64,000 bases of DNA from Chamaesiphon sp. 336R_metabinner_41 (lineage in GTDB: Bacteria; Cyanobacteriota; Cyanobacteriia; Cyanobacteriales; Chamaesiphonaceae): NCBI GenBank assembly GCA_025359915.1, contig JANYDE010000084.1:1-64000 (forward strand). Reading direction: 5' to 3'. Below the pieces are notes generated by a model that saw only the letters and a list, made by a program, of their open reading frames with translations, did not search any database and was not told the origin of the DNA. Position numbers and translations under genes: made by a program. Of the stretch, positions 36,721 to 56,700 are shown in pieces. Each line of letters begins with the position of its first letter. Positions within the stretch are counted from its first letter, which is position 1.

Positions 36721-39700
36721 ATTTCGATCTCCTCCATCTCACCCACTATTTCGACGGAACTCTGTTGACTACTATCTTTGAACCAGATCGATGTATCGAT
36801 GCGGCTGGCTAATCCGGCAATTGTCGGTTGCTCGAATAATGATTGCAGTTGAATGTCAATTGCAAATGCTTGACGAGCACGAGAAATAACTTGAGTCGCT
36901 AATAAAGAATGCCCACCCAGCTCGAAAAAATCATCATTAGTGCCAACTTTATCGATTCTCAGCACTTGCATCCAGATCTGGGCGAGGGTAATTTCGGTGG
37001 GTGTTGAAGGAGCGACAAAGCTAGTCTGGAGCTGAAAACTACCGGAATCGGGGGCAGGTAGAGCTTTGCGATCGATCTTACCGTTTGGAGTTAGGGGTAA
37101 TGCTGGGAGGATCACCATCGCCGAGGGGAGGAAATAATCGGGTAATTTCTGTTGCAGAAATTGCCTCAATTCGCCCGGAATTGGAGCTGTTAAGGCTTGA
37201 GGATTGGCGACAAGATACGCTACCAAGCGACGATCTCCAGGGAGATCTTCTCTAATAATTACTGTTGCTTGAGCGACGGTGGGATGTTGACAGAGCAAGG
37301 ATTCGATCTCGCCTAGTTCGATTCTAAAGCCGCGTAGTTTGACTTGAAAATCCGCTCTGCCCAAGCATTCAATCTTGCCATCAGGTAAATACCGCGCTAA
37401 GTCACCTGTCTGATAAATTCGAGCGGCGGGATGATGGCTAAATAGATTGGGGATAAATTTATCTTTAGTTAAATTCGGTTGTTGCCAATAGCCGCTAGCT
37501 AATCCCACGCCACCAATATATAGTTCACCAGGAATGCCGATCGGTAATGGTTGCAGCTCTTCGTCTAGAATATAAATCTCGGTATTGGCGATCGGTCTGC
37601 CGATCGGGATCCGCTGTTCAGCTCCGGTAATCTGGTAAACTGTAGACCAAATTGTTGTCTCAGTTGGGCCATACATATTCCAAACAGCGGCACTTTTGGC
37701 AAGTAATTGAGCTGCCAAGTCGCTGGTAATTGCTTCGCCCCCACAGAGGATTTTTAGCTGTCGATTACCTACCCATTCCGCTTCGAGTAAGAGCCGCCAA
37801 GTTGAGGGGGTAGCCTGCATGATCGTAATTCCAGCATCCTCAATCGTAGCTGCCAATTTACGCCCATCCATGCCATCTTCGCGACTGAGTAATACTACCC
37901 GCGCGCCGACAGTGATTGGTAAGAAAATTTCCAGTACCGCAATATCAAAGGATAGCGTCGTCACAGACAAGAGAATATCTGTTGCCGTCATCCCTGGTTG
38001 CTGTTGCATCGAAGTCAGGAAATTTACCACGCCGCGATGTAAGACTTCGACTCCCTTGGGTTTACCTGTAGAGCCGGAAGTATAGATGATGTAGGCAATA
38101 TTGTCAGGACTAATCTCGACTTGTGGCGCAGTTGTCGAAGATTGAGCGATTTTGTCCCAATCTGTATCGAGACAAACTCGCTGTTTAACCTGAGTCGGTA
38201 AGTGTTCGATTAAAGGCTGTTGAGTTAACAGCACATTAATTTGAGCATCTGCGAGCATATACTCGATCCGATCGAGTGGATAATGAGGATCGATCGGCAC
38301 ATAGGCTGCACCTGCTTTGAGAATGCCCAGCAATCCAACTACCATCGCCAGAGAACGCTCGATGCAAATCCCGACAAAGGTTTCCGGTTGCACGCCCAAA
38401 TCAATCAGATAATTGGCGACTTGATTTGCTTGCAGATCTAGCTCGGCATAGGTGAGCTGTTGTCCTGCATACACCACAGCCACAGCATCAGGAGTCAATT
38501 TAACTTGCGTCTCAACTAACTGATGTAGACATTGTGTATCGGGATAATCCGCCTGAGTCGCATTCCAATCTACCAGTAACTGTTGTCTCGCCGCTGTTGT
38601 CAGCAGGGGTAATTGGGAAATTAACTGTTCGGGATTAGCGATGATGCCCAGCAACAACGTTTCAAATTCGGACAGATGCCGCCGAATTGTTGATCGATCG
38701 AATAAATTGGTATTATACTGACACTCCAAGACGATCTTGTCACTAAGTTCTACCGCATTGATAAATAGCTCAAACGTCTCAAACTCACGCGGGTTGAGAT
38801 GACTAGATAGCTCCAATCCGCTAAATAACTGACTATTACTTGCCGCAGCTCTGTCTAGATTAAACATAATCGGCACTAGCGGAATCCGGCTCGGATCTCG
38901 CGGTAGAGCTAATTTACTCACCAGGCTACCAAAGGTAAATTGTTGGTGTTCATAAGCATCTAGAATAGTCGATCGACGCTGTTGTAAATAGTCTGTAAAC
39001 GAACGTTTGGGATCGATTTGACTTCGTAGCGGTAATAAGTTGGTACAGTGTCCTACCAGCCGATCTTGCCCTGAGGCAACTTGCCCACAAGCAGGAATGC
39101 CGACGACTAAATCGGACTGCCCCGTCAGGCGATGCAGCAACACCTCAAATCCCGCCAGGATCGTCGTCGCAAAACTACAACCAAATTTTTTACCGAGTTG
39201 TTTCAATCCCTCGCCGACTTCAGCATCCAGATCATAATCTTCCCGCGCTGCATTGAACGTGCGGAATGGTGGGCGGGATCGATCGGTGGGAAAATCAACT
39301 ACAGGCACAGCATCGGCAAACTGTGTCAACCAGTATTGTTCAGTTTCAACGGCATCAGGCTGTTGTGCTGCGGCAATTTCGGCAATCGCATAGTCACTAA
39401 ATTTTTCAGCAACTGGCAGATTTGGATTAATGCCCTGAGCTTGAGCCGAATATAACGCGCCCAAATCTTCGATCAGAATCGTCCAAGACCAACCATCACA
39501 GATGATATGGTGGGCATTGAGCAGTAGTAAATGCTCTTGCTGTGCTAATTTGATAATTTGTGCCCGAAATAGGGTTCCTTGCTCGATATTGAAAGGCTGG
39601 TTGAGATCTTGCTTGACGATCTGGGCTAACTGAAAATCTCGTTCTGGTGGTGGTAGGGGAGTAAGATCGATCGTCGGAATATCGATCGGTAAATCGGCAA

Positions 39701-39995
39701 TAATACAGAGTGATTCGCCGTTTGAGCTGAAGGTGGTTCTAAGTGATTCGTGCCTGCTGACTAATTGTTGGAGAGCCGATGCTAGAGCCGATTGATTGAG
39801 CGTTCCAGTCAATCGGAATGACTGAGATAAATTGTAAGCACAATTAGCCGCGTCACCCATTTGAACAGACAGCCAAATTTCCGTTTGAGAGGGAGTTGCT
39901 GGTGCCGTGAGTAGCAATTCTCCATCCGCAAATGGATCGAAATCAACAGCCAGGAAGTTAGAGTGGGAATCGATCGAGATTGAGTTAGTATTCAT
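36717..39995 (-). CDS. NRPS C-A-PCP, glycine-type adenylation domain
   Basis: 1092 residues. The first 35 residues (DFDPFADGELLLTAPAT) resemble the segment that links aminotransferase domains to condensation domains in single-chain cyanobacterial PKS/NRPS proteins. C domain about 35-470 with intact AHHIICDGWS (161-170). A domain about 490-980; the pocket reads DILQLGMIWK, close to the known glycine code. PCP Ser1030 in LGGHSLL. It would condense glycine onto the beta-amino acyl product of the aminotransferase PKS. It overlaps the next NRPS gene by 4 bp and is separated from that PKS by an acyltransferase gene. Confidence 0.92.
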   Translation of the reverse strand: MNTNSISIDSHSNFLAVDFDPFADGELLLTAPATPSQTEIWLSVQMGDAANCAYNLSQSFRLTGTLNQSALASALQQLVSRHESLRTTFSSNGESLCIIADLPIDIPTIDLTPLPPPERDFQLAQIVKQDLNQPFNIEQGTLFRAQIIKLAQQEHLLLLNAHHIICDGWSWTILIEDLGALYSAQAQGINPNLPVAEKFSDYAIAEIAAAQQPDAVETEQYWLTQFADAVPVVDFPTDRSRPPFRTFNAAREDYDLDAEVGEGLKQLGKKFGCSFATTILAGFEVLLHRLTGQSDLVVGIPACGQVASGQDRLVGHCTNLLPLRSQIDPKRSFTDYLQQRRSTILDAYEHQQFTFGSLVSKLALPRDPSRIPLVPIMFNLDRAAASNSQLFSGLELSSHLNPREFETFELFINAVELSDKIVLECQYNTNLFDRSTIRRHLSEFETLLLGIIANPEQLISQLPLLTTAARQQLLVDWNATQADYPDTQCLHQLVETQVKLTPDAVAVVYAGQQLTYAELDLQANQVANYLIDLGVQPETFVGICIERSLAMVVGLLGILKAGAAYVPIDPHYPLDRIEYMLADAQINVLLTQQPLIEHLPTQVKQRVCLDTDWDKIAQSSTTAPQVEISPDNIAYIIYTSGSTGKPKGVEVLHRGVVNFLTSMQQQPGMTATDILLSVTTLSFDIAVLEIFLPITVGARVVLLSREDGMDGRKLAATIEDAGITIMQATPSTWRLLLEAEWVGNRQLKILCGGEAITSDLAAQLLAKSAAVWNMYGPTETTIWSTVYQITGAEQRIPIGRPIANTEIYILDEELQPLPIGIPGELYIGGVGLASGYWQQPNLTKDKFIPNLFSHHPAARIYQTGDLARYLPDGKIECLGRADFQVKLRGFRIELGEIESLLCQHPTVAQATVIIREDLPGDRRLVAYLVANPQALTAPIPGELRQFLQQKLPDYFLPSAMVILPALPLTPNGKIDRKALPAPDSGSFQLQTSFVAPSTPTEITLAQIWMQVLRIDKVGTNDDFFELGGHSLLATQVISRARQAFAIDIQLQSLFEQPTIAGLASRIDTSIWFKDSSQQSSVEIVGEMEEIEI

Positions 39996-40064: not shown

Positions 40065-41198
40065 CTAACTTGAAAGTTGTGGCTTGGGCTTAAGGAAATT
40101 TCGCGTCGGCACTTCGATGAAATGATATGTCAACGCTGCTACAAGTAGAGATATTGGGATGAATAGAGCTAGAGCTAATAAACAGCTATCTAGATCGAAA
40201 TCACTACCAAATGCGCTATGAAATTTGTACATCCAGAATGTTTCCAAGCACTCGATCAGACACCAATGCACCATGTAAATTGAATAAGAAATCTTCCCCA
40301 AATATAACATTGGCGGAGAATTCAATATTTTCGATACAAATCCATTGGTTGAAATAGATAAGGATATAATCAGCAGTGAGAATGCTGGTAGCGTCAACCA
40401 ATCAAAAGTTACCCGCCGCCGAATCCCTATGTGCATCAGAAATACAACCAGGATCGTAGATATAATCTCCAGTAAATTAAAATTTAGATAATTCTGATAT
40501 TTTCCCCATTGATAAACTTTGTAAGTAATAATCCCCAAGACACATTCTAGAGCGCATCTCGCGATCGACGGAATGCCAATAATTGATTCTAGTGTACCTC
40601 TCGTAACTTTGATTAAGATCAAGAGCAGAATCAATGTGACAATATAAACAATCCAGTCAGTTTTAGGTTTGGTTTTGAGCAGCGCAAACAAGATAAATGG
40701 AAAGATACAGTAAATCAAAAATTCGACACTAATCGACCAGGCAGGCTCATTCCAACTACTTTTACACCATAATAGCGGCGGACAATTGAAGTCAAAAGCT
40801 TGGAGCATAAACACATTGGCAAACAGAGCCGTGATATTAAACTTCCCTGTAAATGCTGAAAAATTTGGCAAGGATAATTTTAATAATTCTAAGCCAAATA
40901 ATATTGCTAGTGTAAATAGATGCAGTGGATAAACCCTGGCAAATCGAGCACGAAGATAGCCCCAGTAATTAGCTTTGTTCACACCCAAACAAAAACTATT
41001 TAGATAGACATGGGTCATGATAAACCCACTCAGCATAAAGAATAAATCGACAAATAAATATCCATCCCGAAAAAAGCGAGTGTAGCGTGATATAAATATC
41101 CCTGCTTCAGGTAAAGTTGAATAAGCAAAATGAAGGATCACCACGACTATTGCCGCAATACCGCGTAGAGATGTCAGTGTACCGATTTGCTTATTCAT
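40065..41198 (-). CDS. acyltransferase 3 family membrane protein (OafA-like)
   Basis: 377 residues with about ten membrane helices. SLRGIAAIVVVILH contains the R-x10-H motif of the family, followed by FVDLFFMLSGFIMTHVY. Such proteins O-acylate sugars or other extracytoplasmic acceptors. Its start overlaps the end of the PKS gene by 8 bp, so it is coupled to the NRPS/PKS set and not only to the sugar genes. The acceptor could be the peptide or the polysaccharide; sequence does not decide. Confidence 0.85.
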   Translation of the reverse strand: MNKQIGTLTSLRGIAAIVVVILHFAYSTLPEAGIFISRYTRFFRDGYLFVDLFFMLSGFIMTHVYLNSFCLGVNKANYWGYLRARFARVYPLHLFTLAILFGLELLKLSLPNFSAFTGKFNITALFANVFMLQAFDFNCPPLLWCKSSWNEPAWSISVEFLIYCIFPFILFALLKTKPKTDWIVYIVTLILLLILIKVTRGTLESIIGIPSIARCALECVLGIITYKVYQWGKYQNYLNFNLLEIISTILVVFLMHIGIRRRVTFDWLTLPAFSLLIISLSISTNGFVSKILNSPPMLYLGKISYSIYMVHWCLIECLETFWMYKFHSAFGSDFDLDSCLLALALFIPISLLVAALTYHFIEVPTRNFLKPKPQLSS

Positions 41199-44100
41199 GA
41201 GTTTGTACCTGCAAATACTTACCCGCTCGATCCGGATCGGGAATAAACCAAGCTGGGTTGCCCTGACGATCTCGACCTAATTTTGCTCCAGGTTGTGGAG
41301 GTTGATTTTCGAGGGTAGGCGCGATATTACGAGGCGGTTCGAGATCGCCATTGAGTGCAATCTTCGATACTGGTTGTCGATCTGATGAATCTAATAAACC
41401 AGATGTTTGCAGCTCGGCGATACACTCTTTAAAAGCTGTCATCACGACTGCCAGATCGCCGTCAGTATGGGCTGTCGTCAAGAAACAAGGACGACGATCG
41501 TAGATATGAATTCCGTTCAATCGCATCAAGTAAAATAACAAATCTCCAGCTAGGAAATTGGGCGGATATTTGACCATAAATAGCGAACCAAAATTATGGG
41601 CGGTAAATGGTACGCCTACCTGCTGGAAATAAGCCATCAATTCGGCGACAAATCGATCGGTCTTGGCATTAAGCTGTTGTTGTAAACTAGCACCACTCTG
41701 TTTGAGATGTGTGAGTACTGCTTTGGCGGCGGCGAGGGCGAGGGGATGACGGACAAATGTACCTGCAAAATAAGTTACTCCCACCTCTGGAATCGAGTCA
41801 TCGCCAAATTGCCAGTAGCCACCATCGAGGGCGTCCATATATTTGGAGGTACCCGCAATTACGCCAATCGGCAATCCGCCGCCGACGATTTTGCCATAGG
41901 TAGCGATGTCGGCTTTGACTCCAAAGTGTGCCTGTGCGCCGCCAGGATGAATCCGAAATCCTGTAACAACTTCGTCAAAAATTAACGCGATCCCAGCTTC
42001 CTGGGTAAATTCGCGCAGTTGGTGGAGTAATTCGCGTGGCTGGTATTCAGGAGATCGACTTTGGACGGGTTCGACCATCACCGCCGCTAATTCATCCGCC
42101 CGACTCCTAAGAATATCGAGTGCGTCGGGCGCGTCGTAATCAATCACCAGAATATTGGCGACCATTTCAGGTGGAATGCCTGGAGCCGCAGGAATCGATC
42201 GCAATTGCTTGGTACCGCGCACGACAACTTCATCTAAAATGCCATGATAAGATCCGGCAAAAATGGCGATTAAATCTCTCCCTGTGACCGTTCGGGCGAT
42301 CCGCATCGCTCCCAGTACAGCTTCCGAGCCAGTATTGCAGAAGGCGGCTCGATCGAAATTAGTCAGTTCGCACATCAATTTGGCAACCTCGCCGACTAAG
42401 GGAGACTGTGGCCCAATTTCCATACCGAGTTGGAGTTGAGTGGTAATTGCTGAGGTGACAAATGCTGGCGACCACCCAAATAGATTCAAGCCAAAGCCAC
42501 TAACTAAATCGACATACTCATTACCATCGATATCCCAGAGCTTCGAGCCACTGGATCGATCGACTACAATCGGATATACCATCTCCTTGATCGTGGGATT
42601 AAAGCCCGACACTGTGCGCGGATCTGCGAGATAAGCTCGATGCGCTGCCGCAAACTGTTTGGATTTCTGCGTCCGCTGAGTATATTTAACAATAATTTTG
42701 TCCAGATGAGCGCGTTGTCCATCGGTCAGGGTTTTAGCTTGGTTTTTAGCTGCATTTGGTAACTCGATCCGACTGCGTAATAGTTCGTGAGTCTGGGCGG
42801 AAGGAGGAGCTACAGTACTAATCACCACAGGGGCTTCAGATTTGATATTTTGGCGCGAATTACCATGCTCAGGCTCAATTGCGGGGGTTGGTGCCGAGGA
42901 ATGATGCTGACCCAATAAAGCTAGTTGTTGAGCCATTAATTGTAACTGCTGACCGATGACAGTTTCTACCAAACTCGATCCAGCTAGTTGGGGTGTAATC
43001 GTCGGGGAAACGTTGACGGGGCGATGATGATTGTCATTGTGTGGCAGAACTGGGACAGCGGCGATGATCGGAGTGACAATTGCGGGAGCAACTGGTACCA
43101 CTGGCACTGGCAAAACATCTGCTGGTAACGTCGCGATCAGAAAATTGGCGAATGTGTCGAAAGTAGGATAAAGTTCGAGCAACTGTCGGAGTGTGACTTT
43201 GACTCGAAACTTTTTCTTGAGCGCGATCCCAATTTGAGTGAGCGATAAAGAATCTAGCCCCATTTCGAGAAATGTTGTCGATTCAGCTACATTAATCATT
43301 TCCAGCCCTGATGTTGCTGCAAAAATTTCTTTCAGGAGGTCAATCAGCAAACGATTTGGTGCTTCTGTCTTCAACATGGGTAACGATGGCTGAGGTTGCG
43401 GCTGCGATGTAGATGCTCGATCGATAACTGACGAATCAGGTGAATGATGATTGTGATGGGGGAGTGAATCGATCCAAAAACGTTGGCGTTCAAAGGGATA
43501 TGTCGATAGGGGCACTCGCCGGCGAGTTTCATGTCGATCGAATTTGTCCCAATTGCTGGTAGAGCCTACTTCTTGGTTAATGGCAACACCTGCCAACCAG
43601 AGTTGTCCGACAGCTTGGAGTAAGACTTTCCACTCATTTTCTGGCGCATCATTCAGGGAAGAAATAGCGATTTGCTGCTGGAGATCTTTGGCTTGTTGGC
43701 GGGCTAGAGTCGCTGTGGTTGATCGAGGGCCAACTTCCAGCAATACCCGCTCTGGCTGCTGCCAAATTGTTTGAATTCCTGGTGCGAATTTAACCGTCTG
43801 GCGGATCTGCGTTGCCCAGTATAGTGGATTAGTTGCTTGCTGATCAGTGATCCAATCACCAGTAACTGTCGAAACAAATGGAATTTGGGGCGGTGATAGT
43901 TTCACCTGTCCGACTAAATTGGCAAATGGATCGATCATCGGATCCATCATTGATGAGTGAAAAGCGTGAGAAGCATGTAGTAACCGACAGACAATTTCTT
44001 TGTCAGTTAACTGGGCTTGTAAGCTCTCGATCTCTGCTGTTGGGCCAGATACGACGCATAGCGTGGGGCTATTAATTGCCGCAATCGTCAGATTGCCGCT

Positions 44101-46146
44101 CAAATGAGCCTCAATTTCGGCGGCTGGCAACCGCACCGACAGCATCGATCCGCGTGGTAAATCCCACATCAATTGACTGCGAGTTGCGACCAGTTTCAAG
44201 GCATCTTCTAAACTAAATACGCCCCCCAAACAAGCAGAGACAAATTCGCCAATACTATGTCCGATTGTCGCAGTGGGAATCACGCCCCAGCTTTGCCATA
44301 GTTGGGCGAGAGCGTATTCAGTGATGAATAGAGCGGGCTGGGTAAAACAGGTTTGCGCCAAGGTAATTGCCGCCGCTTCTATATCCGTCGTGGGATAGAT
44401 AATCGATCGAATGTCCACACCCATCAATGGCTCTAGGACGTTGGCACAGCGATCGATTATTTCTCGATAAACAGGTTCATCACGATAGAGATTTATGCCC
44501 ATGTTCACGTATTGCGAACCTTGTCCAGGAAACATAAATACGACTTCGGGATTTCGGACTTTTCGTTCGCGCGAGATTGTCCGGCGAGACTCACTCGACA
44601 GTGCTGGTAGCGCATCTGCGACATTTTCACAAACGACACAACTGCGATAATTAAATTCTTTGCGTCCGTGTCGGAGCGTATAGGCGACATCGGCAAGATC
44701 GAGATCGGGATTGGACTTTAGATGTGCCTGTAAATTACTGGTAGCAGTGGCTAACGCTGTACTAGTTTTCGCCGATAGCAACAGTAACTGTTGGGGGCGA
44801 GATTTACCAGCAGGCTGGGCGGCAGGAGCTTCTTCGAGAACGATATGGACATTGGTACCGCCAACTCCAAACGAACTCACACCCGCTCGACGCGGACTCG
44901 ATCCTGCTGGCCAATCTGTCAACTGAGTATTGACATAAAAAGGACTATTCCCTAGATCCAGCTTGGGATTGGGAGTTTCAAAATTAATACTGGGCGGAAG
45001 TTGCTTTTTGTCTAAAGCCAGCGCGATCTTCATCAACCCAACAACTCCAGCCGCATCAGCTAAATGCCCGATATTAGCTTTGATCGAGCCTAGTGCGCAA
45101 AATTGTTTAGCCTCAGTTTGGAGTCGGAATGCTTGAGTCAGAGCAGCAACTTCGATCGGATCGCCCATCGGTGTCCCCGTTCCATGTGCCTCAATATAAG
45201 CAAACGTCTCAGGATGAAAATCAGCATAAGCTTGTGCCATCGCGATCGCTTCAGCTTGTCCATCCACACTGGGAGCCGAAAAGCTGACCTTAGCAGCCCC
45301 ATCATTATTGACTCCTACGCCGCGAATTACCGCATAAATGTGGTCTCGATCGGCAACTGCTTCTTCCAGCCGTTTGAGGACAACCAAGCCCCCACCATTG
45401 CCAAATACTGTGCCACTCGATCGAGCATCAAAGGGACGACAATGACCATCTTGGGAAAAAATGCTCCCCTCTTGGTAGAGATAACCACTATGCTGAGGTA
45501 CGGCGATCGATACAGCACCCGTTACCGCCAAATCGCACTGATAACTATTTAAGGCTTGAACAGCTTGGGCAATCGCCACCAGGGAGCTAGAACAAGCCGT
45601 ACTGACACTGAGGCTCGGCCCTTTGAGATCCAGCTTATAAGACGCACGAGTAGTCAGATAGTCCTTTTCACTGGCGAACATCATCTGCAATTGACCAATG
45701 CGATCGAGAATATCCTGACGACCGTGGAGATTGTTTGTATAGTAAGTATTTTGACTGCATCCTGCGTATAAACCGATCGAGCCATCAAATCGATCGGGAT
45801 CGTAACCAGCCTGTTCTAGTCCACTAAATACTAGCTCTAAGAACACTCGCGCCTGAGGATCGATCACCTCCGCCTCACGAGGACTAATCCCAAAAAAAGC
45901 CGCATCCAAATACTCGGCATCCGCCAGCACACCTCTAGCTTTCACATAACTAGGATCTTGAGTCAACTGTCGATCCAGACTCGGATCCAGCTCTCCATCT
46001 TCAAAAAATGAGACCGACTCTACCCCCTGACAAAGATTGTCCCAAAGCTGCTCGATACTATCAGCTCCAGGAAATTTGCCAACCATCCCAATAATCGCAA
46101 TCCCATCAAGGGCATCTTGGTTTTCTACTGTGTGGATGTCACTCAT
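41191..46146 (-). CDS. type I PKS with aminotransferase: KS-AT-ACP-AMT
   Basis: 1651 residues. KS 15-440 has Cys185 in STACSSSL, His321 in EAHGTGT and His361 in NIGH. AT about 534-840 has GHSIGEF (Ser631) and HAFH (727-730), the malonyl-CoA signature. ACP about 930-1005 has Ser966 in GLDSLSL. A Gln-rich linker leads to a class III aminotransferase (about 1150-1580) with PLP Lys1419 in ATYGKIVGGG. There is no KR, DH or ER, so the beta-keto group should be aminated to a beta-amine. The C terminus ends with NPAWFIPDPDRAGKYLQV, a linker that in related proteins continues into a C domain. Confidence 0.93.
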   Translation of the reverse strand: MSDIHTVENQDALDGIAIIGMVGKFPGADSIEQLWDNLCQGVESVSFFEDGELDPSLDRQLTQDPSYVKARGVLADAEYLDAAFFGISPREAEVIDPQARVFLELVFSGLEQAGYDPDRFDGSIGLYAGCSQNTYYTNNLHGRQDILDRIGQLQMMFASEKDYLTTRASYKLDLKGPSLSVSTACSSSLVAIAQAVQALNSYQCDLAVTGAVSIAVPQHSGYLYQEGSIFSQDGHCRPFDARSSGTVFGNGGGLVVLKRLEEAVADRDHIYAVIRGVGVNNDGAAKVSFSAPSVDGQAEAIAMAQAYADFHPETFAYIEAHGTGTPMGDPIEVAALTQAFRLQTEAKQFCALGSIKANIGHLADAAGVVGLMKIALALDKKQLPPSINFETPNPKLDLGNSPFYVNTQLTDWPAGSSPRRAGVSSFGVGGTNVHIVLEEAPAAQPAGKSRPQQLLLLSAKTSTALATATSNLQAHLKSNPDLDLADVAYTLRHGRKEFNYRSCVVCENVADALPALSSESRRTISRERKVRNPEVVFMFPGQGSQYVNMGINLYRDEPVYREIIDRCANVLEPLMGVDIRSIIYPTTDIEAAAITLAQTCFTQPALFITEYALAQLWQSWGVIPTATIGHSIGEFVSACLGGVFSLEDALKLVATRSQLMWDLPRGSMLSVRLPAAEIEAHLSGNLTIAAINSPTLCVVSGPTAEIESLQAQLTDKEIVCRLLHASHAFHSSMMDPMIDPFANLVGQVKLSPPQIPFVSTVTGDWITDQQATNPLYWATQIRQTVKFAPGIQTIWQQPERVLLEVGPRSTTATLARQQAKDLQQQIAISSLNDAPENEWKVLLQAVGQLWLAGVAINQEVGSTSNWDKFDRHETRRRVPLSTYPFERQRFWIDSLPHHNHHSPDSSVIDRASTSQPQPQPSLPMLKTEAPNRLLIDLLKEIFAATSGLEMINVAESTTFLEMGLDSLSLTQIGIALKKKFRVKVTLRQLLELYPTFDTFANFLIATLPADVLPVPVVPVAPAIVTPIIAAVPVLPHNDNHHRPVNVSPTITPQLAGSSLVETVIGQQLQLMAQQLALLGQHHSSAPTPAIEPEHGNSRQNIKSEAPVVISTVAPPSAQTHELLRSRIELPNAAKNQAKTLTDGQRAHLDKIIVKYTQRTQKSKQFAAAHRAYLADPRTVSGFNPTIKEMVYPIVVDRSSGSKLWDIDGNEYVDLVSGFGLNLFGWSPAFVTSAITTQLQLGMEIGPQSPLVGEVAKLMCELTNFDRAAFCNTGSEAVLGAMRIARTVTGRDLIAIFAGSYHGILDEVVVRGTKQLRSIPAAPGIPPEMVANILVIDYDAPDALDILRSRADELAAVMVEPVQSRSPEYQPRELLHQLREFTQEAGIALIFDEVVTGFRIHPGGAQAHFGVKADIATYGKIVGGGLPIGVIAGTSKYMDALDGGYWQFGDDSIPEVGVTYFAGTFVRHPLALAAAKAVLTHLKQSGASLQQQLNAKTDRFVAELMAYFQQVGVPFTAHNFGSLFMVKYPPNFLAGDLLFYLMRLNGIHIYDRRPCFLTTAHTDGDLAVVMTAFKECIAELQTSGLLDSSDRQPVSKIALNGDLEPPRNIAPTLENQPPQPGAKLGRDRQGNPAWFIPDPDRAGKYLQVQTHE

Positions 46147-46245: not shown

Positions 46246-49200
46246 CTATCTCCGGCGACGAGCATTAGCAGCTTTTTGCTGTTCTGCTCGATTTTTGAGT
46301 TGACTATTTGACTGTTGAACTGGTTGTACTCCATTCAAATAGGCTGCCAACTTCGCAATCGTGGGATACTGAAACAGCTTCACCACAGGTATTTCGATTC
46401 CCCCCAATTTTTGCTGGACTCCAGCCGCCACTCGAAGAATGGAGATCGAATGTCCTCCCAATTCAAAGAAATTTTCATGAACGCCAATCTGATTTCGTCC
46501 TAAAACTTCCGACCAAATTGTGACTAAAATTGCTTCTGTCGAGTTACTAGATTTAGAGCTACCAACTACATCAACAGTCGTTGAATTGGTGGTGATGTGC
46601 CAGGGCAGCGGCTCCGCCAACGAACTATTGGTTACTAAATTATTATTCCCACTGATTGTCTGAATATCGACTTTATTCGCCAAAAATGCTCGACGATCGA
46701 CCTTACCATTTACAGTAAGTGGAACAGCAGCGACAACTACAAATACCACCGGAATCATGTAGGTAGGGATGCGATCGACTAGAAAATCTCGTAATTCGGT
46801 CGTTGTAAAGTGGCGATTCTTTGTGACCAGATAAGCCTCCAACCGCTTGTCCCCATTTACTTCTCTCACGATTACCACGCTATCTTCAATGGCTGGATGT
46901 TGGCTCAGTGCGGCTTCAATCTCGCCGAGTTCGATCCGAAATCCCCGAATTTTGACCTGGTTATCGATCCGTCCAATATATTCTAGGTTTCCATCTGGCA
47001 AATACCGAGCTAAGTCACCAGTCTTATATAGACGTGCATCTCTAGATATTGCGGAGTTCGCTGTAGTGGTTGAGTGCAGGGAGAAAGACGATTGTGAAGC
47101 TTCAATCAAGGGGTTTGGAATAAATCGTTCCTGTGTTAATTCAGCTCGTTGCCAATAGCCTTGGGTGACACCAGCTCCACCGACATACATTTCGCCAATA
47201 ACGCCGATGGGGACAGGTTGAAGATCGGCATCTAAGATATAGACTTGAAGATCGGGAATTGGGCGACCGATGAGACTACCCGTAGATTGCAGATCTGCAC
47301 GGGTGAGCGGACGATAGGTGACATGAACGGTAGTTTCGGTAATGCCATACATATTGACCAATTGGGGTGTCGTGTCCCCATGTCGATCGAACCACGGCTC
47401 TAAACTAGGTAGATTCAATGCTTCACCTCCAAAAATTATCAGCCGGAGGCTTAATTGTGCGCTTAGATGTAATCTTTCATCTATTCTACTCAATTGCGCA
47501 AAAGCTGACGGTGTTTGATTGAGGACTGTAACTTTTTCAGATCCTAATAATCGATAAAATTCCACCGGATCTCGACTGACGAAATAGGGGACGATGATCA
47601 GTTTTCCACCATATAATAATGCCCCCCAAATTTCCCAAACCGAGAAATCAAAAGCAAAGGAATGAAATAACGTCCAAACATCCTGTTCGTTAAAATGGTA
47701 CCAATCATCTGTCGCGGCAAATAAGCGGCTCACATTTTGATGGTTTACCAATACTCCCTTTGGCTGTCCGGTGGAACCAGAGGTGTAAATAACGTAGGCT
47801 AGATCGTCAGATTTGCCACTGGGGGCTGGATTTTCGATTGAATATTCACCAATTGTCTGAATATCTCGATCTAAACAAATAATTTGAGCGCAACTAGTCA
47901 AATTAGCTACTAAATCAGCGGTAGTGATGAGGATCGTAACTTGGGCATCGTTTAAGATAGATGCCGAACGTTCTGGCGGATTGCTCGGATCGATCGGTAA
48001 GTAAGCTCCCCCTGCTTTGAGAATTCCTAAAATTCCGACGATTGTCTCGATCGATCGCTCGACACAAAGTCCGACTAATACATTCGATTCCACACCCAAA
48101 CTTTGTAAGTAGTGTGCTAATTGATTGGCGCGATGATTTAACTCTCGATAAGTTAATTTTTGGTCGGCAAATACTAAGGCAATGCGATCTGGATTTTGAG
48201 CTACCTGGCGTTCAAATAAGTGATGAAGACAGATCTCTGACTGGTAATTTGACGACGATTGTTGGGCGAATCCTACTAACTGCTGTCGCTCTGCCTCCGT
48301 CAACATCGGTAACTGTGAAATTGACTGTTGAGGGTTCGCGACAATTCCCGCTAACAACTGCTGAAAATGACCATTCAATCGATCGATCGTCGCCGCATCA
48401 AATAAGTCCGAATTATATACCCACTGTCCGGCTAGTCCATCGCTAGCTGGTTTGAGATATAACGTCAGATCAAATTTGGCGGTATTCGCTTCAATCGTCC
48501 AAGGAATGGCTGTGAGTCGATCGAGTTCGATGGTGTCAAATCGGATATTTTCTTCAAATACCAAGGTGAATTGGAGCTGTAAGCCCTCAATCAGCTCGAT
48601 CGGCACTGCCTGATGCTGCCTTGCCAACTTAGCAACCCGATTCACTTGTTGTAGTAATGCGGCAAACTCAGGATTGCCAGCTAAGTCGCTGCGTACAGCG
48701 ACTGCATTCACAAAAATTTCGGCACCAATCAGATCGACAGTCGGCATTCCGACCATCAGATCCTCACTACCTGTATAACGATAAAGTAAGATCTGGAATA
48801 CTGCTAATAATGTTGTCGATAGCGAGACCCCTTGTTGCTGGCTGAGTGTCTCCAGTGCCGCAGTCAATGCTCGATCGATCTCAAAAGATCTAGCTTTACC
48901 GCGACAAATCGCTTGCGCCTGTCTGGGACGAGCCATTGGCAGCGATAATAATCCTGGTGCGCCGTCCAACTGCTGCTGCCAATAAGCCAATCCAGCTTGC
49001 AATGGTAATTCTCCCAATTGAGCAATTAGAGCCGATTTAGCTGATGCATAGACATCTCGATCGATCGACTCCAGCCGAGGATCGTAGTTTAACATCAACC
49101 GGAGATTTCCCAGCGCGGCGACCCAGTTATGCGCCTGAAGACAGCGCATCAGCTCATAAGGTAGTCGATCTCCAAAAAATTTGATCCACGCAGTTCGTCC

Positions 49201-49971
49201 GGTTTCATAGGCAATGAGATCTTCGGGTTTGCCACTTTGTCGGACATAATTCCACTCCAAACTGTGAACGGCTAAAGTCCCGATCAGCATTTTAGCTGAC
49301 GCACTAGAAACATTCCCACCGTGATATCGATATTCAGATACTACTCGATCGTGAAATTCGATCGGAAATGCCCGCGCAATCTCCAAAAATAGATGTAGAT
49401 CTTCCATCACCGTAAAACTGGGATCGAATCCGCCCCTAGACTCATTGGCGCAGAGTACCGCTGATCGGCGGAAGATTGCCGTAGCGCACTGGATTTTGTG
49501 TTGAGCGGCTAAAATCGTCGCATAACTAGCTACGGCTGGCGGATCCTCTGATAGTTGTTGGGTAGTATAGGAGCCATCGGGATTAATCGATCGAAATAAA
49601 TAATTGCCAAATCCAAACCCAGCTTCTGGAGAAGCTTTCAAGCACTCTACCCCAATCTCGATCGTCTCAGGAAACAGGCAGTCATCGCTATCAAGGAAAA
49701 TCAAATATTCGCCCTGACTGGCATGAATACCTGTATTCCGCGCACTAGCAGCACCTTGATTATCTTGGTAGATATATGTCACCGCTGGATAGCGAGCGCA
49801 AACTATTTTGGTATCATCGATCGAACCATCATCGACAACGATCATCTCGATCGCTGGATAAGTCTGGCTCAACACACTTTCAATTGCTGCTGGCAAAAAT
49901 TCACCGCTATTATAGGCGGGGATGATTACGGAAACACTGGATTTGTTTGAGTCAGACAAAAATAACTGCAT
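46246..49971 (-). CDS. GT2 glycosyltransferase-half condensation-A(Thr)-PCP fusion
   Basis: 1241 residues. Residues 1-320 are a complete GT2 with VSVIIPAYNSGEFL, VVDDGSIDDT, DSD at 94-96, SARNTGI and the MEDL catalytic-base region (Glu190-Asp191). Residues about 322-560 are only the C-terminal lobe of a condensation domain, starting at YWQQQL (330); the lobe with HHxxxDG is absent. The A domain (about 575-1098) has the pocket DFWNIGMVHK, the known threonine code. PCP Ser1175 in LGGHSIS. The C-terminal RAEQQKAANARRRR matches the NRPS-to-KS linker of the 53759 protein. It should load Thr for the next PKS, and may glycosylate it, which is inference. Confidence 0.92.
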   Translation of the reverse strand: MQLFLSDSNKSSVSVIIPAYNSGEFLPAAIESVLSQTYPAIEMIVVDDGSIDDTKIVCARYPAVTYIYQDNQGAASARNTGIHASQGEYLIFLDSDDCLFPETIEIGVECLKASPEAGFGFGNYLFRSINPDGSYTTQQLSEDPPAVASYATILAAQHKIQCATAIFRRSAVLCANESRGGFDPSFTVMEDLHLFLEIARAFPIEFHDRVVSEYRYHGGNVSSASAKMLIGTLAVHSLEWNYVRQSGKPEDLIAYETGRTAWIKFFGDRLPYELMRCLQAHNWVAALGNLRLMLNYDPRLESIDRDVYASAKSALIAQLGELPLQAGLAYWQQQLDGAPGLLSLPMARPRQAQAICRGKARSFEIDRALTAALETLSQQQGVSLSTTLLAVFQILLYRYTGSEDLMVGMPTVDLIGAEIFVNAVAVRSDLAGNPEFAALLQQVNRVAKLARQHQAVPIELIEGLQLQFTLVFEENIRFDTIELDRLTAIPWTIEANTAKFDLTLYLKPASDGLAGQWVYNSDLFDAATIDRLNGHFQQLLAGIVANPQQSISQLPMLTEAERQQLVGFAQQSSSNYQSEICLHHLFERQVAQNPDRIALVFADQKLTYRELNHRANQLAHYLQSLGVESNVLVGLCVERSIETIVGILGILKAGGAYLPIDPSNPPERSASILNDAQVTILITTADLVANLTSCAQIICLDRDIQTIGEYSIENPAPSGKSDDLAYVIYTSGSTGQPKGVLVNHQNVSRLFAATDDWYHFNEQDVWTLFHSFAFDFSVWEIWGALLYGGKLIIVPYFVSRDPVEFYRLLGSEKVTVLNQTPSAFAQLSRIDERLHLSAQLSLRLIIFGGEALNLPSLEPWFDRHGDTTPQLVNMYGITETTVHVTYRPLTRADLQSTGSLIGRPIPDLQVYILDADLQPVPIGVIGEMYVGGAGVTQGYWQRAELTQERFIPNPLIEASQSSFSLHSTTTANSAISRDARLYKTGDLARYLPDGNLEYIGRIDNQVKIRGFRIELGEIEAALSQHPAIEDSVVIVREVNGDKRLEAYLVTKNRHFTTTELRDFLVDRIPTYMIPVVFVVVAAVPLTVNGKVDRRAFLANKVDIQTISGNNNLVTNSSLAEPLPWHITTNSTTVDVVGSSKSSNSTEAILVTIWSEVLGRNQIGVHENFFELGGHSISILRVAAGVQQKLGGIEIPVVKLFQYPTIAKLAAYLNGVQPVQQSNSQLKNRAEQQKAANARRRR
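46605..46624 (+). repeat. short interspersed repeat copy 4, in an A-PCP linker
   Basis: GCAGCGGCTCCGCCAACGAA lies inside the GT2-NRPS gene and is read on the minus strand as SSLAEPLP in the unconserved linker between the adenylation and carrier domains. Confidence 0.6.
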
Positions 49972-50129: not shown

Positions 50130-51533
50130 TTAAACCCCAATTCCTACATAGGTAAAACCAGCTTCGGTCATTTTTGCTGCGGATAGGAAATTGCGGCAAT
50201 CGATCGTTAGTGGACAGCGCATTAATGTGGCTAAATGTTGATAATCTAAAGATTGAAACTCCGCCCATTCTGTCATCAGGACGATCGCATCACAATCGGC
50301 TGCTAATAGTTCTGGACTATTCACTAACGTCGCCCCAGCTAGATTTACGTGTACATCAGTAACGATCGGATCGTATGCTTTAACTTTCACGCCCAATCGA
50401 ACTAGCATCGCGATCGTTTCCAGTGCTGGAGCATCACGCAAATCGTCAGTATCAGGCTTAAATGCTAACCCTAAAATCCCGACAGTTTTACCTTTCAAAA
50501 TCTTCAGATATTTTTGTAGCTTGTGAATCACTAGAGCGCGTTGTCCTTGATTGACACTTACTGTCGCTTTGAGTAGTTGAGCATCATAGCCATAATCCGC
50601 TCCAGTATGAATGAGTGCGGCTAAATCTTTGGGAAAACAAGAGCCACCCCAACCAATCCCCGCATTCAAGAATTTATTGCCAATCCGTGAATCCAAACCA
50701 ATTCCCTGAGAAACCTGCGTGACATCTGCACCCACCCGTTCGCAAATATTAGCAATTTCATTGATAAAACTAATTTTCGTAGCCAGGAAAGCATTTGCGG
50801 CGTACTTAATCATTTCAGCCGAACCCAAATCGGTAGTCAATACCGAAACAGGTGCCGGGACAGCTCGATCAGCTTGGCGTAACTCCTGGGTTTGGGGACA
50901 ACGATCGATAATTGGGGCATACAAATCTAGCATCAGATCGATCGCCCGTTGGCTACCACTACCCAATACAATCCGATCGGGATTGAGCGTATCGTAGATC
51001 GCCGAACCTTCACGCAAAAATTCAGGATTGCTGACTACATCGAACTGTACATTTGGCAGCCGCGATTGTATGTGATTTCCCGCACCAACTAAACTCAATT
51101 GGGGCTGATTTTCGATCACTCCATCAAGTACCAGCATTTTTACCCAATCGCCAGAGCCGATCGGTACGGTAGACTTATTTACAATCACTTTATAACTACC
51201 GTCGAGATGCTTACCAATTCCTTTGGCGACAGCTTCTACATATTTGGTATTAGTAGCTCCATTAGGTAAAGAAGGAGTTCCTACCGCAATAAATAAAATC
51301 TCCCCATGTTCCACACCCCGCGCGAGATCGGTGGTGAATTTCAGTCGATTGCTGGCCATTGCCGAACGCATAATCTCGGCTAAACCCGGCTCATAAATTG
51401 GTGACTGTCCAGACTGCAATAACTCTACCTTGGCAAGATCGTTATCTACACAGATCACGTCGTGACCGATATGTGCCAAACAAGCTCCAGTCACCAAACC
51501 TACATAACCAGTCCCGATCGTACAAACGCGCAT
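50130..51533 (-). CDS. ugd: UDP-glucose 6-dehydrogenase
   Basis: 467 residues. Ugd oxidises UDP-glucose twice to UDP-glucuronate with NAD. The N-terminal Rossmann fold has CTIGTGYVGLVTGACLAHIG; the catalytic Cys is in GIGWGGSCFPKDLAAL; the C-terminal UDP-binding domain has VGILGLAFKPDTDDLRDAPAL. An unconserved insert near 135-160 (LDGVIENQPQLSLVGAGNHI) is a known variable region. It provides an acidic sugar precursor for the polysaccharide, or UDP-xylose after decarboxylation, which would fit the GH10 enzymes in the locus. First gene of the minus-strand run. Confidence 0.92.
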   Translation of the reverse strand: MRVCTIGTGYVGLVTGACLAHIGHDVICVDNDLAKVELLQSGQSPIYEPGLAEIMRSAMASNRLKFTTDLARGVEHGEILFIAVGTPSLPNGATNTKYVEAVAKGIGKHLDGSYKVIVNKSTVPIGSGDWVKMLVLDGVIENQPQLSLVGAGNHIQSRLPNVQFDVVSNPEFLREGSAIYDTLNPDRIVLGSGSQRAIDLMLDLYAPIIDRCPQTQELRQADRAVPAPVSVLTTDLGSAEMIKYAANAFLATKISFINEIANICERVGADVTQVSQGIGLDSRIGNKFLNAGIGWGGSCFPKDLAALIHTGADYGYDAQLLKATVSVNQGQRALVIHKLQKYLKILKGKTVGILGLAFKPDTDDLRDAPALETIAMLVRLGVKVKAYDPIVTDVHVNLAGATLVNSPELLAADCDAIVLMTEWAEFQSLDYQHLATLMRCPLTIDCRNFLSAAKMTEAGFTYVGIGV

Positions 51534-51988: not shown

Positions 51989-53446
51989 ATGACCGATCTC
52001 AAAAAACCTGATAGCTTAGATGGTCTGCGACAAACAGAAGACATTCGGGCGACAAATCTATCAATGGACTGGTGGAGGGCCATGGATTGGCTCCAATCAC
52101 TCGTGCTGATCTGTTTAGATACTGCCATGCTATTTGTCTCGTGGACTTTGGCGGATCGGATCGGCACGCCCACAGTAGGACTTCATATTGCAGACTCGAT
52201 GTTGCCAATTTTGGCAGCTAGTCTTGCCACTCTTGCCGCTTCTGGATTTTATGGTACCGATGACAAATTCCATCGATTTGCCAAGTTGTTAAAATCGCTG
52301 ACATTAGCACATGTCGTAGTGTTAGTTGCGGCTTTTTTCTATCAGCCGGAATTTTGGGTGTCCCGCTCGGTGTTTGTAATTGCTTGGATTCTAAATTTTG
52401 TCTTGATTGCTACTGCCAGATTCCTGTTTGATGGCCTTGTAATTCAAATTCGGAAAAGCAATCCACTTTTTCAGCAAGCAATCGTGTTGGTGGGACAGCC
52501 TCAAGATATCGATCGAGCCAGAAAATTATTAAAGCGATCTCAACAATTTAGAATCGATAGTATTATCGATCTATCCATTTGGGATATGAGTAGTCAATTA
52601 GATGAAATTTTTGACCAGATTAAATCACGGAAAATCAGTGAAGTCTTTCTTTGTTCTCAACAATTAATCGACAATCAAATTGTCTTTTTCTGGAACTTGA
52701 AATCAGCAGGTATTCACCTGAGAATGGTGCCGACCGAGCTACAACTTCCCCAACGGTCGGCTGAAACAAAGATGATTGAAGAAATTCCAACACTGCGATT
52801 CAAATCTTTATCGATTTTTGGAATTAACTTTTGGTTGAAACGCACTCTCGATCGAATTGCCGCATTCTCGATTTTAGTAGTAATATCGCCAATTTTATTG
52901 TTAATTGCTATTTTAGTCAAAAAAACATCGACAGGGCCAATTTTCTATAGACAAGATCGCGTTGGCTTAAAAGGTCGCCGCTTTAAGGTCTGGAAATTTC
53001 GGACGATGGTCCAAAATGCTGGCGAATTACAAAAAGCACTGGAAGAGCAAAACGAAGTTAAAGGAGGCGTACTCTTTAAAATTAAACACGATCCTCGGAT
53101 TACGAAGATTGGTAAGTTTTTGCGTGATTATAGTTTGGATGAATTACCGCAGTTAATTAATGTGCTGCAAGGTGAAATGAGTCTGGTGGGACCGCGTCCG
53201 CTACCCATTAGAGACTATGAATTATCGATCCAAAATGCCGATGAATTTGCTAGAGATAAATTTTTGCGTTACGAGGTGTTACCTGGGATCACTGGGTTGT
53301 GGCAAGTCAAAGGTCGTGCTACTATTGATTCTGATGAAATCTTCTATTGGGATATGGTATATATCCTGGAATGGTCGCTGGTGCTAGATTTAAGAATATT
53401 ACTCCAAACGGTGAAGGTTGTATTGTTTAAGGAGGGATCTTATTAA
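51989..53446 (+). CDS. polyprenyl glycosylphosphotransferase (WcaJ-type initiating enzyme)
   Basis: 485 residues. The N-terminal half has about four membrane helices (to residue 150) and a CoA-binding-like cytosolic domain. The C-terminal catalytic part begins at LKRTLDRIAAFSILVVISPILLL, then GPIFYRQDRVGLKGRRFKVWKFRTM, SLDELPQLINVLQGEMSLVGPRP and LPGITGLWQVKGR. It transfers a sugar-1-phosphate to undecaprenyl phosphate and so starts the repeat unit. A Shine-Dalgarno GGAG lies 8 nt before the ATG. It is divergent from ugd and 312 bp upstream of the hybrid megasynthase. Confidence 0.92.
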   Translation: MTDLKKPDSLDGLRQTEDIRATNLSMDWWRAMDWLQSLVLICLDTAMLFVSWTLADRIGTPTVGLHIADSMLPILAASLATLAASGFYGTDDKFHRFAKLLKSLTLAHVVVLVAAFFYQPEFWVSRSVFVIAWILNFVLIATARFLFDGLVIQIRKSNPLFQQAIVLVGQPQDIDRARKLLKRSQQFRIDSIIDLSIWDMSSQLDEIFDQIKSRKISEVFLCSQQLIDNQIVFFWNLKSAGIHLRMVPTELQLPQRSAETKMIEEIPTLRFKSLSIFGINFWLKRTLDRIAAFSILVVISPILLLIAILVKKTSTGPIFYRQDRVGLKGRRFKVWKFRTMVQNAGELQKALEEQNEVKGGVLFKIKHDPRITKIGKFLRDYSLDELPQLINVLQGEMSLVGPRPLPIRDYELSIQNADEFARDKFLRYEVLPGITGLWQVKGRATIDSDEIFYWDMVYILEWSLVLDLRILLQTVKVVLFKEGSY

Positions 53447-53758: not shown

Positions 53759-56700
53759 ATGCAACCATCTTTGTCTAACTCGAATCAAAACAGCGTCTCG
53801 GTAATAATTACGGCAGATGATAGCAGTGAATTTTTACCAGCGATAATTGAAAGTGTTCTGAATCAGACTTATCCAGGCATCGAGGTGATGGTAGTCGATG
53901 ATGGTTCGACTGATGACACCAGAGTAGTTTGCAATCGTTACCCAGGCGTAATCTATATTTACCAGGAGCGACAGGGTACTGCTATTGCTCGAAATACGGG
54001 CATGGGAGCCAGTAAGAGCGAATATGTAGTTTTCCTCGATCGTCATGACTGCTTGCTGCCTGACGCGATCGAAGTTGGGGTAGAGAAGTTAAATGCTAGG
54101 TCAGAAGTTGGCTTTGTTTTTGGTAATGATGGATGTAGATCGAATTATCTGGACGGAATAGATAGGAGTCAACGACTGCCTGACGATCCGCCAGCCATCG
54201 CCAGCTATGCCACAGTTTTAGCCGCTCAACACAAAATCCCCTGCGCTACAGCGATATTTCGGCGAGTGGTAGTCGAATCTGTGGGTGGCTTTGATCCGAG
54301 TTTGGGCGAGATGACAGATCTGAACCTATTACTTAAGATTGCGCGGGTATTTTCGATCGAATGTCACGATCGAGTAGTGTTAGCAGATCGAGATCGTAGT
54401 GAGCATGTCTCGAGTGCCTACGGCAGGCCAGATCCCAACGACTCAGCCAAAATGCTGAATCTTATATTGGCAGTTCATAGTTTGGAATGGGATTATGTAA
54501 TCCAAAGCGGGCAGCCTGAATACTTGGTTGCGTATGAGCTTGGACGCGCTAATTGGGTGAAATCTTTCGCATCAACTACTCAAGAATATTCATCAAATCA
54601 TCAGTCAAAAATCTGTCTGCAACACTTATTTGAACGGCAAGTAACGCAACATCCAGACCGCATTGCGGTTGTATTTGAAGACCAAAAATTAACTTATCAG
54701 GAGTTAAATCATCGCGCCAATCAATTGGCTCACTACCTACAAAGTTTGGGTGTGAAACCAAATATGTTAGTAGGGTTGTGTGTCGAAAGATCGTTAGAAA
54801 CAATTATTGGCATTTTAGGCATTCTCAAAGCGGGTGGAGCTTATTTACCGATCGATCCAAGCAATCCACCCGAACGTTCGGAATATATCTTAAAAGATGC
54901 CCAAGTTACGATCTTAATAACTACCGCTGATTTGGTAGCTAGTTTGGCTAATTGCGACCGAGTGATTTGTTTAGATACAGATTTACCGACAATTACGACG
55001 TATTCGATCAATAATCTAGTTGAGTCTAGACAGTCGGATAATTTGGCTTATGTTATTTATACTTCTGGTTCTACTGGACAGCCAAAGGGTGTATTAGTAA
55101 ATCATCAAAATGTGATTCGGCTATTTACATCGACAGACAATTGGTATCACTTCAACGAGCAAGATGTCTGGACGCTGTTTCACTCTTTTGCCTTTGATTT
55201 CTCTGTTTGGGAAATCTGGGGTGCATTGTTATATGGCGGAAAATTGGTAGTTGTCCCCTATTTTGTCAGTCGAGATCCGGCGGAATTCTATCGATTATTA
55301 GCATCTGAAAAAGTTACAGTTCTCAATCAAACGCCGTCAGCTTTTTATCAATTAAGTACCGTCGATGAGCGACTATATTTGAGCGAAAAGTTAAGTTTAC
55401 GAATAATTATTTTTGGCGGTGAAGCTCTGAATTTACCTAGTTTAGAGCCTTGGTTCGATCGACATGGGGACACGACACCCCAATTGGTCAACATGTATGG
55501 CATTACCGAAACTACCGTTCATGTCACCTATCGTCCGCTCAATCGTGCCGATTTACAATCAAAAGGTAGTCTCATCGGCGTTCCGATTCCCGATCTTCAG
55601 GTTTATCTATTAGATGAAGATCTTCAGCCTGTACCAGTTGGCACCAGCGCAGAAATGTATGTAGGTGGTGCAGGAGTAACTCAAGGTTATTGGCAACGAG
55701 CAGAATTAACGCAATCGCGATTCATCGATCATCCCTTCAGTCCAGCGGCGAATGCCAAGCTATATAAAACAGGTGATCTCGCTCGGTATTTGCCAGATGG
55801 AAACCTAGAATATATTGGACGGATCGATAACCAGGTGAAGATTCGCGGATTTCGGATCGAACTCGGTGAGATTGAAGCCGCACTCAGTCGGCATCCCGAC
55901 ATTGAAACCAGTGTAGTAATTGTGCGCGAAGACGTACCAGGTGATAAACGCTTGGTTGCTTATCTTGTCACCCAAAATTCTCAGATTTCAGCGAATGAAT
56001 TGCGGGCATTGTTGGCAGAGACATTGCCCGCTTATATGATTCCTAGTGGTTTCGAGATTGTCGCTACGTTCCCGCTGACTGTGAATGGAAAGGTTGACAG
56101 GCGGGCATTGTTGGCGAATCAAGTTGAGAGCCAAGTAATTAAGAATATCAGCGTGACTAGTTCAGCCGAAACTGATGTGACGACTAGTACTTTACCAAAA
56201 ACTTCGATTGAAAGTATTCTGATTAAAATTTGGTCAGAAGTTTTAGGACAACCGCAGATTGGAATCAATGATAATTTCTTCGATCTGGGTGGAAGTTCCG
56301 TATTAATTATTAAAGTTGGCGAACGGATCCAATCAGAATTAGACATTAAAACTTTACCGATTGTCAAGCTATTTCAGCATTCGACAATTGCCAAATTAGC
56401 TAAATATTTGGATACCGCAGCTAATCCGCCTAGTACTGATGATAAATTCACTAGCCGCGCCCAACGTCAGCAAGCAGCTCAGGGAAAATCGCCGAGTATT
56501 AATGATGGCATTGCGATCGTCGGAATGGCGGGTAGATTTCCTGGCGCGAGGACTGTTGACCAATTGTGGCAGAATCTTTGCGCCGGAATTGAGTCAACAA
56601 CTTTCTTTGAGGATGATGAGTTAGATCCCAGTATCGATCCTCAACTCAGACAGGATAGTAGTTATGTCAAAGCGAGGGGAATTATTGAGGGTGGTGAAAC

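Follow-up and report, generated by a model that had tools for sequence, protein, structure and literature searches.

A gene in which a family 2 glycosyltransferase (GT2) is joined to a nonribosomal peptide synthetase (NRPS) module lies at positions 46246-49971, on the reverse strand, of the 64,000-nucleotide stretch of Chamaesiphon sp. 336R_metabinner_41 analysed here (contig JANYDE010000084.1; henceforth the window). It forms one ATG-started open reading frame (ORF) of 1241 amino acids (aa), composed of a GT2, the C-terminal half of a condensation domain (C-half), a Thr-type adenylation (A) domain and a thiolation (T) domain. In a Pfam scan of the protein, Glycos_transf_2 covers aa 14-126 (PF00535, E=8.2e-32), with Glyco_tranf_2_3 reaching aa 202. 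The Condensation match (aa 325-566) spans only profile positions 192-456 of 456, and is followed by AMP-binding (586-940), AMP-binding_C (1017-1090) and PP-binding (1149-1212).

Both the Pfam match and the DxD and (E)D motifs that characterize the GT2 family are present, the motifs reading VVDDGS, DSD and ED. A complete LCL condensation domain consists of two lobes and contains HHxxxDG; here the C-terminal lobe stands alone, a motif check found no HHxxxDG upstream of the A domain, and there is a deletion around the RDxSxxPL motif region. Such a C-terminal lobe directly before the first A domain is the arrangement of the truncated-C starters (C*-A-T). The A domain is complete with a readable code, DFWNIGMVHK (Thr type), and the carrier motif LGGHS is intact with its Ser, as in an NRPS initiation module (A-T). 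A-domain codes were read by alignment to a PheA reference segment whose internal residue spacing was checked by script. The same code occurs at the Thr position of the cyanopeptolin synthetase OciA-A2 (PMC2533009). The intact GT2 motifs, the missing HHxxxDG lobe and the Thr pocket had all been noted in a preliminary description of the window, and they stand. We consider the fusion a variant of the NRPS initiation module that may represent a new class. The structure predicted for the GT2 and C-half from a ten-row alignment (mean pLDDT 57.6, pTM 0.42) was too poor for judging their packing.

Recurrence and origin of the fusion

A profile built from the GT2 plus its C-terminal part scored the complete, intact fusion GT2s at 535-600 bits, as opposed to at most 170 bits for other cyanobacterial GT2s (sampled in 386 genomes); a decayed second copy in the window scored 337 bits and the solo sister GT2s 291-327 bits. 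Fusion-clade GT2s were found in 16 cyanobacterial genomes from four families: in the window's family all seven genomes of good quality, in genus g3 six of the 30, and in addition G002, G025 and G648. A pattern scan of genome contigs gave one close relative only. Maximum-likelihood analysis groups the fusion GT2s in one fully supported clade (100/100), and the GT2-NRPS fusion has a single origin. Between Chamaesiphon species the GT2 is under purifying selection (omega 0.08-0.15).

The preliminary description had raised the concern of an assembly chimera or frame error, and the window's genome (G000) is indeed a draft of 169 contigs with 3.4% contamination. This explanation was rejected as vanishingly improbable, since the fusion, of single origin, recurs across independent assemblies: it is present in 14 further genomes, some of them nearly closed, and in one more of the window's family (G004) a contig end cuts the gene behind the GT2, before the NRPS part. 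The same junction is found on a 7.48-Mb contig (G422).

No GT2-NRPS fusion was found in a plasmid search, and neither such a fusion nor NRPS genes in exopolysaccharide (EPS) loci were found in the open-access PMC literature, in agreement with the earlier remark that no enzyme of this order had been characterized. The joining of a GT2 to an NRPS loading module is a conserved architecture for which that literature yielded no description; descriptions may exist elsewhere.

The condensation half and the adenylation domains

Pfam scans underlie the architectures given for the window proteins, G389, G648 and the N-terminal part of G025; those of the rest were derived from sequence, alignment and homology. 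Like the window, G002 and G005 contain GT2-C-half-A(Thr)-T. The order GT2-C-half-A(Gly)-T followed by a thioesterase (TE) is found in five intact g3 genomes (G389, G371, G241, G422, G430) and in G648. The G011 copy (L044:970-5345) has a frameshift within the half C domain and an altered end, from either an assembly error or a pseudogene. In G025, two full C-A-T modules and a TE come after GT2-C-half-A(Gly)-T. G006 and G003 exhibit GT2-A-T-KS-AT-ACP-aminotransferase with no recognisable C-half; G009 and G010 are similar but retain a C-half remnant of about 50 aa, and the G009 protein also has C-A-T-TE.

The C-half is also absent from a second fusion in the window, at 53759-61828 on the forward strand, which the preliminary description missed along with the half-C-started NRPS from 61875. 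Judged from these architectures, loss or erosion of the C-half took place on several occasions. In the proteins that retain it, its omega of 0.13-0.24 (the closest pair excepted) indicates purifying selection, which fits a structural role beside the A domain.

According to the preliminary description, the GT2 had replaced half of a condensation domain. This order of events is disfavoured, as some NRPS genes have a half-C start but no GT2, and as the C-half has repeatedly shrunk or disappeared behind one. The gene at 61875-65291(+) (L050:1876-5292) opens with a C-lobe (profile 195-456) and continues as A-T-TE; it has an orthologue in G005, and the code of its A domain is of the Pro type. In genome G576, an NRPS within a polysaccharide locus likewise starts with a half C domain, and shares that locus with a sister-group solo GT2. 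There, the solo GT2 is at L108:11493-12440 and the NRPS, of two modules plus TE, at L108/L109 13610-20257 (joined); the locus holds Wzx and resembles a pre-fusion state. A truncated C* starter has also been published for ThdA (PMC7253712). Because of the half-C starts without GT2, the G576 locus and the ThdA precedent, the likelier course is that an EPS locus contained an NRPS with a half-C start, which became joined to the GT2 next to it; replacement of a C lobe by a GT2 is the less likely one. The resolution of the C-lobe tree is too low to prove the order of the fusion events.

The GT2 of the second fusion is degenerate: DSD has become DRH, ED has become TD and YRYHG has become DRDRS, and its branch length (0.74) is about eight times that of the intact paralogue (0.095). 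Comparison of the A domains of the two window fusions gives an omega of 0.13. Since the NRPS part was kept without an intact GT2, amino-acid loading is probably independent of the GT2. This decayed copy, together with the co-occurrence of a solo sister GT2 and an NRPS in the G576 locus, would be expected if an ordinary EPS GT2 had been fused by chance to a neighbouring NRPS with no functional coupling. We consider that quite unlikely, as the product of a single event has been retained over four families with its GT2 under purifying selection, and has outlasted both exchange of the A domain and loss of the C-half.

As to the function of the GT2, the preliminary description proposed that it glycosylates, in cis, the Thr hydroxyl on the adjacent carrier, which would yield an O-glycosyl-Thr starter, here of a secreted glycopeptide. 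Consistent with this proposal, the GT2 physically adjoins the carrier, the Thr code is found in six Chamaesiphonaceae fusion genomes (in G005 with one Val-for-Ile change), and the GT2 motifs are intact in the main copies of all six; the G006 code, DVWCIAMVYK, is unassigned. However, in eight genomes (G025, G648 and six of g3) orthologous GT2s precede A domains with the Gly-type code DILQLGMVWK. This differs from the Gly code DILQLGMIWK by one conservative change, at position 330, which is counted among those varying in Gly domains (PMC12283262). Across the Thr/Gly boundary the GT2s share 60-67% identity, compared to 44-45% for the A core, so that one and the same GT2 has come to stand before A domains of different kinds. 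Gly has no side-chain hydroxyl, and a GT2 found before either Thr or Gly A domains thus does not depend on one. On the codes read, the GT2s of this family cannot in general serve to O-glycosylate carrier-bound Thr in cis; the mechanism is limited to the Thr lineage at most, where it is possible. Overall we find it unlikely, given also the broken GT2 beside a conserved A domain in the window's second Thr fusion and the kinship of the GT2 with polysaccharide glycosyltransferases.

The exopolysaccharide locus and the proposed function

The genes around the fusion are listed in Table 1. Flippase, polymerase, polyprenyl sugar transferase and Wzc occur together in the window, as in a Wzx/Wzy-dependent EPS locus. 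Outside g3, all nine readable loci (G000, G002, G003, G005, G006, G009, G010, G025 and G648) contain Wzx and/or Wzy by the fusion, and in the same nine a polyprenyl-phosphate sugar transferase lies beside it, usually with further glycosyltransferases. In the eight of these loci other than that of G000, the fusion is flanked by homologues of several genes of the window cluster. Of four solo sister GT2s whose surroundings were read, three reside in polysaccharide-gene-rich loci, and the closest curated and solved relatives of the GT2 (chondroitin synthase, TuaG and EpsD) are polysaccharide glycosyltransferases. A GH10 homologue adjoins the fusion in G006 as well, and a PknG-like protein kinase (rubredoxin, kinase, TPR) is encoded at the edge of the window's EPS locus, at 16629-18893(-).

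Table 1. Features of the window: the fused gene with its parts, the remainder of the assembly line and the EPS genes, followed by the second fusion and the half-C gene
Feature	Positions	Strand	Basis
Fused gene, 1241 aa, GT2-C-half-A(Thr)-T	46246..49971	-	Pfam, code, motifs
GT2 catalytic domain (aa 12-237), VVDDGS, DSD, ED	49261..49938	-	Pfam, alignment, motifs
GT2 C-terminal part (aa 238-327), common to solo sister GT2s	48991..49260	-	Alignment; solo GT2s match up to model position 293-294
C-half (aa 328-580), C-terminal lobe of LCL-like condensation domain	48232..48990	-	Pfam, alignment; without HHxxxDG
Adenylation domain, DFWNIGMVHK (Thr)	46672..48231	-	Pfam, PheA alignment
Thiolation (PCP) domain, LGGHS	46327..46539	-	Pfam, motif
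Polyketide synthase (PKS) module KS-AT-ACP-aminotransferase, next step of the line	41191..46146	-	Pfam
Acyl_transf_3 membrane acyltransferase (AT3), between PKS and NRPS genes	40065..41198	-	Pfam
NRPS C-A(Gly-type DILQLGMIWK)-T	36717..39995	-	Domain scan, code
NRPS TubC docking-C-A-T-TE	32494..36720	-	Domain scan
Wzx-type flippase	31057..32472	-	Domain scan
GT4 glycosyltransferase	29969..31060	-	Domain scan
Wzy/O-antigen-ligase-type polymerase	28638..29918	-	Domain scan
GT4 glycosyltransferase	27463..28536	-	Domain scan
WecG/TagA-type glycosyltransferase	26641..27408	-	Domain scan
Second Wzy_C protein	23979..25235	-	Domain scan
Wzc-type chain-length/ATPase protein (Wzz, GNVR, AAA)	20277..22595	-	Domain scan
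Two GH10 glycoside hydrolase paralogues within the EPS locus	22691-23890 and 25373-26569	-	Domain scan
UDP-glucose dehydrogenase family, possible UDP-GlcA supply	50130..51533	-	Pfam
Polyprenyl-phosphate sugar-1-phosphate transferase (WcaJ/EPS type)	51989..53446	+	Pfam
Second fusion, 2689 aa, GT2(degenerate)-A(Thr)-T-KS-AT-KR-ACP-TE, without C-half	53759..61828	+	Pfam, alignment, code, tree, motifs
C-half-A(presumed Pro-type code)-T-TE, 1138 aa, no GT2	61875..64000, continuing to 65291 past the window	+	Pfam, code

The fused gene thus reads as an EPS-type GT2 and an NRPS initiation module, with a C-lobe devoid of the condensation active site between them as a spacer; in the window, the line continues with the KS-AT-ACP-aminotransferase gene and two NRPS modules, the thioesterase being last. 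We tentatively favour, with rather less than even confidence, a reading in which the fusion links the EPS-type GT2 to the loading of aminoacyl or peptidyl groups, and the TE transfers the amino acid or short peptide to the glycan. With the same reserve, 46246-49971 may be regarded as the initiation enzyme of a joint surface-polysaccharide and peptide pathway. The A-T unit would load Thr (Gly in relatives), whereupon a short chain would be built on the line, or in relatives a single Gly would remain on the T domain. The GT2 would extend the growing lipid-linked oligosaccharide by a sugar and not act on an amino-acid side chain, and the thioesterase would pass the aminoacyl or peptidyl group to the glycan, giving a polymer with amino-acid or peptide ornaments. 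Fusion of both activities would match peptide loading to glycan assembly, and the C-half would be retained where it supports the A domain and lost elsewhere. Donor, acceptor, loading and transfer are what we infer here, from domains and motif integrity read in the sequence. The preliminary description had also offered that the GT2 primes the peptide on a sugar, which comes nearer to the EPS context than cis glycosylation of Thr.

The one-module GT2-C-half-A(Gly)-T-TE enzymes speak for glycan decoration. Lacking a condensation domain, they could only have their loaded Gly hydrolysed or transferred; in G648 such an enzyme lies in a Wzx/Wzy locus, where transfer would be the sole useful fate besides hydrolysis. 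More cautiously still, we propose a cyanobacterial GT2-NRPS class that would modify Wzy-type EPS with Gly, with Thr-derived groups or with short peptides by nonribosomal (and PKS-extended) chemistry, with the glycosyltransferase and the loader in one protein.

Several observations weigh against the decoration of EPS. In the six g3 genomes the fusion gene is outside any EPS locus (20-60 kb read). The AT3 gene occurs in G000, G005 and G010 only, and there is no conserved dedicated acyl-to-glycan transferase. The UDP-glucose dehydrogenase gene adjoins the fusion in the window only and, not being found in the other loci, was rejected as a conserved partner. Moreover, thioesterases usually hydrolyse or cyclise. 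Alternatively, the GT2 may glycosylate a later intermediate or the released peptide, the product being a soluble glycopeptide for which the EPS neighbours supply sugars or are incidental. NRPS lines with an adjacent GT2 gene do exist, e.g., with a full C domain in the plasmid cluster of Aulosira laxa, and the predicted product of the window would bear hydroxyl and amino groups. We nevertheless deem this somewhat unlikely, because it leaves unexplained both the one-module Gly enzymes and the repeated placement in Wzx/Wzy loci.

A cyanobacterial gene that joins a sugar transferase to the first module of a peptide synthetase, usually in a slime-polysaccharide cluster, suggests that amino acids or short peptides are put on the surface polysaccharide. 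The one-module Gly version is small enough for a direct test of whether assembly-line enzymes decorate bacterial surface polysaccharides.

Comparison with known systems

Like the fusion, ThdA of the thermoactinoamide pathway contains a half C domain before its first A domain; this half C is regarded as inactive and may tune the A domain. Neither a glycosyltransferase in front nor a polysaccharide locus is described for ThdA (PMC7253712). The glycosyltransferase domains of TuaG, EpsD and chondroitin synthase share the fold family, the motifs and the type of locus with the fusion GT2, but are not fused to an NRPS, and the fusion GT2 scores far under the equivalog cut-offs (98 versus 400 bits for TuaG). 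In Aulosira laxa NIES-50 (AP018308.1), a GT2 gene is directly upstream of an NRPS gene, although the two are separate, the C domain is full with an HHxxxDA-type motif, and the GT2 is a distant relative. This plasmid is conjugative, and its GT2 gene lies about 18 bases before the NRPS gene (L098, 14998-24446).

In the Dlt system of teichoic-acid D-alanylation and the Alm system of lipid A glycylation, the latter using Gly, an adenylating enzyme and a carrier load the amino acid that is to be attached to a glycopolymer or glycolipid of the cell surface (PMC3783018, PMC4790380). By domain content, the one-module GT2-C-half-A(Gly)-T-TE relatives would provide the same adenylation and carrier pair. 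Dlt and Alm nevertheless consist of separate proteins with dedicated membrane or LPLAT transferases, and have no fused GT2, C-half or TE. No MBOAT/DltD or AlmG-type transferase was found among the window genes scanned (19 to 62 kb), the AT3 at 40065 belonging to another family, and the fusion fails membership in these systems because their dedicated transferases were not found. The glycan destination is part of the Dlt and Alm systems, and for the fusion it is a proposed one. Decoration of the EPS by the fusion, which we hold as a tentative reading, would by analogy resemble D-alanylation and lipid A glycylation, accomplished with different parts.

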